Shown here in pieces: positions 34,394 through 36,396 of a stretch of DNA of 45,386 nt (the first letter of the stretch is position 1; every line of letters begins with the position of its first letter). The DNA comes from Aromatoleum diolicum. Its GTDB lineage: Bacteria; Pseudomonadota; Gammaproteobacteria; Burkholderiales; Rhodocyclaceae. A model generated the notes under the pieces. The model was not told where the DNA came from, did not search any database, and saw only the letters and a program-made list of their open reading frames with translations. The stretch is from contig NZ_WTVQ01000039.1 of NCBI RefSeq assembly GCF_012910955.1, positions 1 to 45,386 on the forward strand. The letters are read 5' to 3'. A program made the translations under genes and the position numbers.

Positions 34394-35599
34394 TCAGGCG
34401 GTGCGGCGCGGCGACACAAACGGCGTGGTGACGACGCGCTCGCCACGACACTCTGCGGCGCTGAGGCCGATTTCCTCGTCGCTGAGGTAGCAGCCCGGAT
34501 CTTCGGCCCAAGCGTCGCCGGTGATCTGCTGGGCGCGCACGCGCGAACTGCCATTGCAGATATCCAGGTGACGGCACGCGCCGCAACGGCCGCCGAGCAC
34601 GCGCGGGTGGCGTTTGAGCCCGGCCATCAATGGATTTGAGACGTCGCTCCAGATTTCGGAGAACGGCCGCTCGCGGACCTTGCCGAGCGGGACGTGCCAC
34701 CACATGGTGTCGGGATGGACAATGCCGAGGTTGTCGATGTTGGCGACGTTGACGCCACTGGCGTTGCCGCCCCATTGCACGAGCTTGGCGCGGATGTGCG
34801 CGGCGCGTTCAGGGAAGCGCCGGGTAACCCAGTGCAGCAGATATACGCCGTCTGCGTCATTGTTGCCGGTAACGAACTCCTTGTCGATGCCGCGCCGGTG
34901 CAAATCGAGACAAGTTTCGAAAAGCAGATCCATCGCATCGCGTGTGGTCTGATGGCGCGCATCGTCAGCGCGGTGCTTGTTGCCACGGCCGGCGTAGTTG
35001 AGGTGCGAGAAGTAGAACTTGTCGATGCCCTCATCCTCGACCAGCCGCAACAGTGCGGACAGGTCGTGGGCGTTGTCCTCGGTCATCGTGTAGCGCACGC
35101 CCACCTTGATGCCACGCGCGTGGCACAGGCGAATGCCGGACATCGAGGCGTCGAAGGCGCCATCGAGGCGGCGGAATTTGTCGTGAGTGGCACCGATTCC
35201 ATCCAGGCTGACGCCGACATAGTCGAAACCGGTATCGACGATGGCGTCGATATTGCTGCCGTTGATGAGCGTACCGTTGCTCGACAGGCCGACATAGAAG
35301 CCCATCGCTTTGGCATGGCGCGCGATATCGAAGATGTCGGCGCGCAGCAGCGGCTCGCCGCCGGAGAGGATCAGCACCGGTACGCGGAAGGCCTTGAGGT
35401 CGTCCATGACGCGAAACACGTCGGCGGTGGAGAGCTCACCGGGGAAGTCACTGTCGGCGGAGATCGAATAGCAGTGCTTGCAGGTGAGGTTGCAGCGGCG
35501 GATGAGGTTCCAGATGACGACCGGCCCGGGCGGATTGCGGCGCGGAGCGACGGGTGTCGGATGGTCGAGCTCGCGGATGAAGTGTGAGATGCGAAACAT
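34394..35599 (-). CDS. nirJ: Radical SAM heme d1 biosynthesis protein NirJ
   Basis: A 401-residue radical SAM enzyme. The cluster motif CNLTCKHCY is at residues 36-44 (Cys36, Cys40, Cys43), followed by LILSGGEPLLR and YVGVSLDG. The C-terminal SPASM-like region holds further cysteines (GRCGACRHLDIC and DPGC). NirJ removes propionate side chains from didecarboxysiroheme on the way to heme d1. The ribosome site GGAGG lies six bases before the ATG at 35597-35599. It is separated from nirH by 260 bp of structured non-coding DNA, the only sizeable gap in the run. Confidence 0.95.
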   Translation of the reverse strand: MFRISHFIRELDHPTPVAPRRNPPGPVVIWNLIRRCNLTCKHCYSISADSDFPGELSTADVFRVMDDLKAFRVPVLILSGGEPLLRADIFDIARHAKAMGFYVGLSSNGTLINGSNIDAIVDTGFDYVGVSLDGIGATHDKFRRLDGAFDASMSGIRLCHARGIKVGVRYTMTEDNAHDLSALLRLVEDEGIDKFYFSHLNYAGRGNKHRADDARHQTTRDAMDLLFETCLDLHRRGIDKEFVTGNNDADGVYLLHWVTRRFPERAAHIRAKLVQWGGNASGVNVANIDNLGIVHPDTMWWHVPLGKVRERPFSEIWSDVSNPLMAGLKRHPRVLGGRCGACRHLDICNGSSRVRAQQITGDAWAEDPGCYLSDEEIGLSAAECRGERVVTTPFVSPRRTA

Positions 35600-35654
35600 G
35601 GCTTACCTCCGTATCGCTGACGATTAGACCGCGGCGCGGGCGGCGGGAAAATGA

Positions 35655-35821
35655 CGGGTATCAAGTGGCGCCCGGATACCCGGTTACGCCACGGCGAATT
35701 GCCCGGGCGATCCTTCGCGTAACTGAATCCTGCGGGAACGGCCCGCCCCCGAGCGCGGGAGTTCCACACTTCGTTGGACGCGTGGCGGACGCCTCAGCGC
35801 GGAACTCCCACCCTCGGGGGC
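35655..35821 (-). other. Run of four consecutive inverted repeats between nirH and nirJ (structured RNA or dispersed repeat)
   Basis: The 260 bp between nirH and nirJ hold four stem-loops one after another. (a) CGGGTATC/GATACCCG at 35655-35662 and 35675-35682. (b) GTTACGC/GCGTAAC at 35683-35689 and 35717-35723. (c) GCGGG/CCCGC at 35732-35736 and 35742-35746. (d) A long two-part stem: GCCCCCGAG (35745-35753) with CTCGGGGGC (35813-35821), and inside it GGGAGTTCC (35757-35765) with GGAACTCCC (35801-35809), plus a small hairpin at 35780-35792. Elements c and d overlap by two bases. There is no T run, so it is not a standard terminator. No protein is supported. It would form the 5' leader of nirJ, or be a dispersed repeat inserted in the operon. 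Confidence 0.75.
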
Positions 35822-35859
35822 TACACCTTGCCGCGATCGGCTGATGCGGGCACGCGGGG

Positions 35860-36396
35860 TCAGTCCGATGTTCCAATCCGCAGGCCGGTCTTCTTGAGGA
35901 TTGCCGACGAGAACAGCACGTCGTGGCTGCGGCAGGCGCCCGGGAAGCGGCCATGGAGCAGCGCGGCGATATCGTCGAGTTGCTGCCGGACCGCATCGCG
36001 GCTGCGGCCATGGACCATCGCGAACAGGTTGTACGGCCAGTCCGGCAAGCGGCGCGGGCGGCGGTAACAGTGGGTGACGGCGTCGAGCGCGCCGAGCCAT
36101 TCGCCGACCGCGTCGATGGCCTCGTCGGCGATGTCCCACACGCTCATGCCATTGGCGGTGTAACCGATCGCGTAGTGGTTGGGCACGGCGCCGATGCGGC
36201 GGATGAGTCCGCGATCAAGCATCGCTTCTACCCGGACGAGCAACTCGTCGACCGGCACTCCGACCTTGCTGGCGACCTCGTTCCACGGGTCCGCGACGAG
36301 TGGCAGGCCGCCTTGCGTGGCGAGGATGATGCGCCGATCGATGTCATCGGCAGGCGCGGAGACTGTCTGGGGGATTTCGGCGCCGCGAGTGCTCAT
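35860..36396 (-). CDS. nirH: Siroheme decarboxylase subunit NirH
   Basis: A 178-residue Lrp/AsnC-related protein without use as a regulator; NirD, NirL, NirG and NirH together decarboxylate siroheme at C12 and C18. It has an N-terminal winged helix (DDIDRRIILATQGGLPLV, VGVPVDELLVRVEAMLDRGLIRRIG) and the signature CYRRPRRLPDWPYNLFAMVHGRS. The ATG at 36394-36396 is preferred since GGAGG lies four bases upstream; the adjacent ATG three bases earlier overlaps the nirG stop by four bases. Either way nirG and nirH are translationally coupled. Confidence 0.88.
   Translation of the reverse strand: MSTRGAEIPQTVSAPADDIDRRIILATQGGLPLVADPWNEVASKVGVPVDELLVRVEAMLDRGLIRRIGAVPNHYAIGYTANGMSVWDIADEAIDAVGEWLGALDAVTHCYRRPRRLPDWPYNLFAMVHGRSRDAVRQQLDDIAALLHGRFPGACRSHDVLFSSAILKKTGLRIGTSD

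Follow-up and report, generated by a model that had tools for sequence, protein, structure and literature searches.

A genus-level dispersed hairpin repeat between nirH and nirJ in Aromatoleum diolicum

Introduction

In Aromatoleum diolicum, nirH and nirJ are separated by a gap of 260 bases (35600-35859 of the window, i.e. the whole analysed stretch of 45,386 nucleotides, contig NZ_WTVQ01000039.1). A preliminary description had correctly reported this gap and four inverted repeats within it, all of which can be read directly in the sequence. It treated the four as one compact element and offered two readings, a structured RNA leader controlling nirJ and a copy of a dispersed palindromic repeat. 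Here, we ask what this element is, where else it occurs and what may keep it folded. Our main reading, to which we assign a probability of roughly 0.72, is that the gap holds one copy of a genus-level dispersed repeat that was inserted in the past, belongs to a mostly fossil family and may have a role at the 3' end on the nirH side. The earlier interpretation as a whole is partly supported.

A single structured element in the gap

The features of the region are as follows.

36399-35860, minus strand: nirH-like siroheme decarboxylase gene (gene call; PF17805, PF22451)
35833-35735, minus strand, shared with nirH and nirJ: copy of the dispersed hairpin repeat, span of the model match (R1, E 3.3e-15; fold z −6.53)
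35821-35796, minus strand: 5' stem arm (25 bases) together with the closing G (35821), at which the GTAG tag ends (from covariation)
35795-35771, minus strand: conserved apical loop (25-nt type), bordered by GA on either side and containing an inner mini-hairpin (from the pattern match)
35770-35745, minus strand: 3' stem arm plus closing C (from the comparison of copies)
35732-35746, no strand assigned: hairpin 3 (5/5 pairs; arms 35732-35736 and 35742-35746), overlapping the 3' edge of the repeat
35683-35723, no strand assigned: hairpin 2 (7/7 pairs; arms 35683-35689 and 35717-35723), outside the repeat
35655-35682, no strand assigned: hairpin 1 (8/8 pairs; arms 35655-35662 and 35675-35682), outside the repeat, its first arm inside the DNR/FNR-type box
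35664-35651, minus strand: DNR/FNR-type box TTGATACCCGTCAT, candidate nirJ activator site
35626-35623, minus strand: TAAT, candidate −10 element of nirJ
35599-34394, minus strand: nirJ-like radical SAM gene (PF04055)

The repeat copy lies 26 bases behind the nirH stop codon and 135 bases before the nirJ start. Its 99 bases (35735-35833) folded as minus-strand RNA with −67.6 kcal/mol, a value that none of 200 shuffles equalled, whereas the plus strand of the same segment gave a z of −3.05. In the remaining 135 bases (35600-35734), which contain hairpins 1 and 2 together with three bases of the third, z was +0.73 and 150 of 200 shuffles folded at least equally well. The entire gap reached −3.29 on the minus strand, and positions 35640-35845 of the plus strand, folded as DNA, only −0.91. 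Above-chance folding in the gap is confined to the fourth hairpin. The difference between 35735-35833 and 35600-35734 therefore points to a single genuine structure, beside which the other three repeats are accidental or overlap it. The idea of a single compact element of four hairpins is not supported, since hairpins 1 and 2 lie outside the repeat and hairpin 3 touches no more than its edge.

The fourth hairpin had been described as a two-part stem with a 3x3 internal loop. On the plus strand, its arms (35745-35765 and 35801-35821) are indeed present as a 9+3x3+9 stem. On the minus strand, which is the sense strand of the nir genes, the supposed loop consists of a G.G mismatch, a G-C pair and a T.G wobble; the unit is therefore a 25-nt loop on a stem of some 25-26 bp.

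Distribution of the repeat

A BLAST search of the spacer against its own genome, the check proposed in the preliminary description, returned ten further places with E<0.002, all of them within query positions 133-265 (hairpin 4 and its edges), which supports a dispersed repeat; no clear genomic copies of hairpin 2 were found. Like-oriented copies share the loop consensus GAGGCGTCCGCC(A/G)CGCG(T)CCAACGA, while their stems vary with pairing kept. The loop pattern occurred at 9 places in the own genome versus 0 in a reversed control. A collection of 84,980 species yielded 18 stretches, all titled Aromatoleum or Azoarcus sp. Aa7, and a sample of relatives yielded 13 of 61 genomes including the own, every one from the same genus. 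Viral contigs contained no match.

The covariance model R1 detected 16 places in the own genome. Across the genus it produced 106 matches at E≤0.01 (the E-values being rough), which comprise 91 places in 16 of 17 genomes and 15 opposite-strand echoes that were dropped before the count. Copy-bearing genomes contain between 1 place (as in G005) and 17 places (G014); G011 has a weak match only and G009 no copy. Family-wide, 8 of 199 genomes matched, two of them outside Aromatoleum. The three distant members in these two other genera have different loops in which the same inner pairs are possible. In the order-wide search with model R2, a single genome of 399 matched, namely the own, with 10 of its 16 known places. 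As ten candidates were scored per genome and the filters were stricter, the absence of the repeat elsewhere in the order is weakly supported by this search. In Rfam 15 there was no match at gathering score for 35400-36100 and two matches lay far below it. No paper found in our literature searches was recognised as describing the family in Aromatoleum. The hairpin behind nirH is thus one copy of a genus-level dispersed repeat, referred to here as the Aromatoleum repeat family, and the second of the two earlier readings is borne out by the many unrelated places at which it occurs.

Compensatory changes and strand bias

The repeat unit measures about 98 bases and is composed of a GYAG-like tag, a stem of 25-26 bp and a conserved loop of 23-25 nt. 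Between copies the sequence of the stem is free and its pairing strict, while the loop is nearly constant. In 42 loop-bearing copies, 96.7% of the cells are standard pairs and both sides have changed in 19 of 30 pairs. Cells with both sides changed numbered 193, compared to 46.3 ± 5.6 in shuffles and 20-37 with slid partners. A set of 44 more diverse copies gave 204 such cells versus 42.4 ± 5.2 (slid: 19-48); the shuffle-based counts are inflated by the relatedness of the copies. For alignment A2, 46 rows were chosen and the weak rows G011 C25 and G000 C66:42298 (G000 being the own genome) were left out. Since the 42 copies were found by their loop, loop conservation in this set is partly a matter of choice, which does not affect the stem covariation. 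In the 44-copy set, distant members included, covariation extends to the loop pairs 43-63, 46-60 and 49-57.

In the tag of the 42 copies, A and G are invariant, the first G is at least 90% conserved and the second base is mostly C or T; it is degenerate in some of the 91 copies. Some loops are 23 nt long and carry GCTTGC at their tip; in RNA form we take this to be a CUUG tetraloop, and the GA at both loop edges presumably forms tandem G.A pairs.

On the loop-sense strand, wobbles are predominantly G.T (203 cells versus 22 A.C cells in 90 of the 91 copies, the class '?' copy of G011 being left out). Without three positions that are rich in T.G or mismatches, the 91 copies still showed 94 versus 21 cells, or 59 versus 21 distinct locus-positions (p = 2.5e-5). 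The bias was also present in groups antisense to their neighbours (25 versus 10 locus-positions, p = 0.017), and sense groups alone tended in the same direction (13 versus 6, not significant, p = 0.17). Because antisense groups show the bias and sense groups the same trend, this suggests a constraint on the loop-sense strand regardless of gene direction. Such a one-strand constraint appears to fit neither a plain mRNA element nor plain copying between the arms, though mutation with a strand bias might produce a similar G.T excess.

Genomic placement and history of the copies

Based on genes called with a simple codon-based caller, 38 of the 91 places lie antisense and 24 sense to codirectional genes on both sides, 12 between convergent genes, 16 within genes and a single one between divergent genes; the latter, in G011, is one of the two weakest matches. 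Flanking proteins define 24 locus groups, within which a common orientation is built into the grouping, and 19 groups are common to at least two genomes. The codirectional groups are divided between antisense (9) and sense (8), and in 15 of these 17 groups the copy is closer to the stop-codon side than to the start-codon side of its neighbours. Such a position might reflect no more than where insertions are tolerated.

The NCBIfam scan covered 30 neighbouring proteins, one of which had no family, and the nir proteins and the two in-gene hosts were scanned with Pfam. No common functional theme emerged among the 30 scanned neighbours, a set that leaves out the neighbours of five locus groups (G014 5052229, G011, C63, C111 and C66 42298). 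The use of both orientations, together with the lack of a theme among the examined neighbours, argues against a specific role in gene control. An intrinsic terminator was ruled out: no terminator-like site exists in 35590-35870, in agreement with the earlier remark that a T run is lacking, and few stem ends are T-rich: of the 91 copies, 6 in sense and 1 in antisense have at least four T among the 15 nt that follow the stem.

All 16 in-gene copies are in sense, 99 bases long and open in frame, compared to 96 to 101 bases in the other 75, and the frames differ between the two host genes. One host, with copies in nine genomes, encodes formyl-transferase and enoyl-CoA hydratase domains and is presumably hypX/hoxX-like. 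The other is a UvrA-like gene with copies in seven genomes; its product in the own genome has 1927 aa, which we take to be about double length. The hypX-like match carries one TGA in G002 and G013. Other palindromic-looking sequences were seen at or near the hypX-like linker in genomes with or without the repeat, G013 among them, and this linker seems to collect repeats.

Most copies look inherited, since the most similar stem is found at the same locus for 63 of the 86 copies that have a same-locus partner, and since the median stem identity is 0.92 to the nearest same-locus copy versus 0.75 to the nearest paralogue in the genome. Movement or replacement, with independent arrival of the repeat, is seen in the livF-paaK-like spacer. 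Here, G015 and the own genome have antisense copies 21 and 41 bases past the stop codon, and G013 and G014 have sense copies at 107 in a different spacer sequence, while G013 and G015 share 95 and 99% identity in the proteins on either side. The cysB spacer of G015 seems to be a deletion remnant of the copy in G013. A MITE would have terminal inverted repeats and a target-site duplication. In comparisons of flanks at the hypX-like, cysB and livF-paaK-like loci, neither a clear target duplication nor exact ends were detected; the spacers were too divergent for insertion ends to be read from empty sites.

Two further observations concern spacers. The cysB spacer of G003 contains a small hairpin (GCAG, a stem of about 10 bp and a GAG loop), which is absent from the spacer of G010 and might have arisen through collapse of a repeat copy. 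Between the convergent genes hisC and hisD, G008 and G014 have two inverted copies about 80 bases apart.

The region upstream of nirJ

A nirJ match is present in all 17 genomes of the genus, with the repeat upstream in two, the own genome and G014, whose nir copies have very different stems. In seven genomes nirH directly precedes nirJ. The gaps measure 83-89 bases in the five of these without the repeat versus 170 (G014) and 260 (window) in the two with it. Translations indicate a small cupredoxin-like gene, not nirH, directly before nirJ in nine genomes, and the genus thus has two or more arrangements of the nir cluster; in G011 a gene on the opposite strand precedes nirJ.

Common to all 17 genomes is a box of the form TTGA(C/T)-N4-(G/A)TCA(T/A) before nirJ, with TAAT exactly 24 nt behind it in 16 of the 17. 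In the window, the box TTGATACCCGTCAT ends 51 bases before the nirJ start and resembles the DNR motif of denitrification genes, given in PMC1274295 as CTTGATnnnnATCAAG, with a partial match in the second half of the motif. Judged by this resemblance, a regulator of the DNR/FNR type would be expected to bind there. A scan for the sigma-70 consensus identified no promoter at the candidate −10 region. Owing to the conserved box, nirJ is probably not driven solely from the upstream nir genes. In both repeat-bearing spacers the box stands between the repeat and nirJ. A transcript starting from the box region would accordingly not contain the repeat, and the gap is best read as the nirJ promoter region with an added repeat.

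Discussion

We propose that past insertions dispersed the family to tolerant places, chiefly at gene 3' ends, and that most copies today are fossils. The pairing of the stem would be kept by selection on the fold, perhaps aided by arm-to-arm copying. With less certainty, the transcribed hairpin in the nir cluster might act like a REP or BIME in a 3' untranslated region, where it could block 3'-5' exonucleases or serve as an RNase III cut site. It would then mark the 3' end of an mRNA that extends up to nirH, with nirJ restarting from a DNR-type promoter of its own. Such a REP-like role behind nirH is favoured by the position and stability of the hairpin and by precedent.

Almost as good as the REP-like role is the explanation that the repeat is a neutral fossil with self-correcting arms, devoid of function, whose arms remain complementary through template switching in replication, one arm serving as the template for the other; we regard it as a real possibility, though short of an even chance. 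The copies share neither an orientation nor a function among the neighbours scanned. Copies at one locus often differ by an exchange of Watson-Crick pairs (287 of the 883 cells that differ when every pair within a group is compared). Moreover, the same 5' arm occurs at different loci (C33 in the own genome and a C60-type locus in G014), which suggests exchange. Simple arm copying does not, however, predict the excess of G.T over A.C on one strand unless mutation is strand-biased, and the conserved loop with its three covarying inner pairs also speaks against it. The strand-specific bias, which extends to antisense groups, would fit a single-stranded DNA substrate of recombination or transposition that is recognised via its loop, comparable to attC or to IS200/IS605-type ends. 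A conserved loop on an arbitrary stem, the GYAG-like tag and the opposite-orientation copies in one livF-paaK-like spacer would agree with this. We nevertheless consider such a substrate improbable, since searches for a Y1 transposase found none in the own genome or in G014, G013, G015 and G010, the last four of which have 7-17 copies, and since signs of recent movement are few, given the predominance of same-locus stems. A related idea does without this enzyme: a putative Aromatoleum protein could recognise the GA-edged mini-hairpin loop on an arbitrary long stem, on one strand and as RNA or single-stranded DNA, and move or use it while the stem drifts compensatorily. Such a hairpin mobile element, defined by its folded loop, is speculative and seems to us unlikely.

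The length of the repeat, its occurrence in a betaproteobacterial genus and its position between genes or inside open reading frames recall the Beta-proteobacterial repeat element (BRE), which Hot et al. 2011 (PMC3110155) describe as about 75-91 bp long, mostly intergenic and sometimes inside ORFs, with one copy in Azoarcus sp. EbN1. That R1 finds one place in G005 resembles this single EbN1 copy. The same source, however, reports BRE from other families, with up to 29 copies in Comamonadaceae and 8-22 in Bordetella, and as tandem VNTR arrays. No tandem array was seen among our 91 places, and R2 was without a match in 398 other genomes of the order (ten candidates each, strict filters). Compared by description, identity with BRE seems improbable to us. 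Very unlikely, in our view, is a cis-acting RNA leader or riboswitch controlling nirJ. The strong fold of the repeat and its sense-strand position in the nirH-nirJ gap would be compatible with it, but the repeat is absent upstream of nirJ in 15 of 17 genomes and from five of the seven with an adjacent nirH, lies upstream of the conserved DNR/FNR-type box instead of between promoter and start codon, has other copies near unrelated genes, often in antisense, and is without an Rfam match near gathering scores.

The combination of one conserved loop with rewritten but still paired stems, in 16 genomes whose loci are open to comparison, provides a natural experiment on selection for a fold versus arm-copying during replication. 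Dispersed palindromes are common in general. The covariance model can be used for annotating Aromatoleum genomes, including the repeat-coded segments in HypX-like and UvrA-like proteins. If a loop-recognised element exists, structure would be the defining trait of its class, be it mobile or regulatory, and no Y1 transposase would be involved.

Some palindromic elements of Rickettsia are short repeats that are read in-frame inside proteins. The enterobacterial RU-1, RU-2 and RU-3 are likewise small mobile repeats, some of them in-frame within proteins (PMC2759123). The Aromatoleum repeat shares short length and in-frame copies with both. It differs from them in the genera concerned, and in that the loop and not the stem is conserved; no clear terminal inverted repeats or target duplications were seen in the flanks compared.

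As a dispersed GC-rich palindrome with GTAG or GYAG beside the stem at one end, the repeat also resembles the REP/BIME/REPIN elements associated with RAYT. Published GTAG units are 20-40 bp long with stems of 5-13 bp; they show complementary stem changes and G.T pairs, and some GTAG-14 loops are long and self-complementary with up to 27 bp (PMC3733652). Covariation as such is therefore not new. What is new is the extent of stem covariation under a fixed loop. The unit of about 98 bp with a stem of 25-26 bp exceeds the REP size range, its stems are hypervariable under a conserved loop, and there are 0-17 places per genome. The own genome had 0 matches to the Y1 transposase family (PF01797), and G002, G003 and G006 were, like the four copy-rich genomes named above, without a RAYT/Y1 transposase. 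Y1 transposases are present in 9 of the 17 genomes, among them G016 with seven copies of the repeat. Stem length and missing transposase thus place the family outside REP/RAYT, even though the repeat may still work like a REP. Behind cysB, G011 has a palindrome of the GTAGCCCGGATG type, which is like a published GTAG REP and unrelated to the Aromatoleum repeat family.
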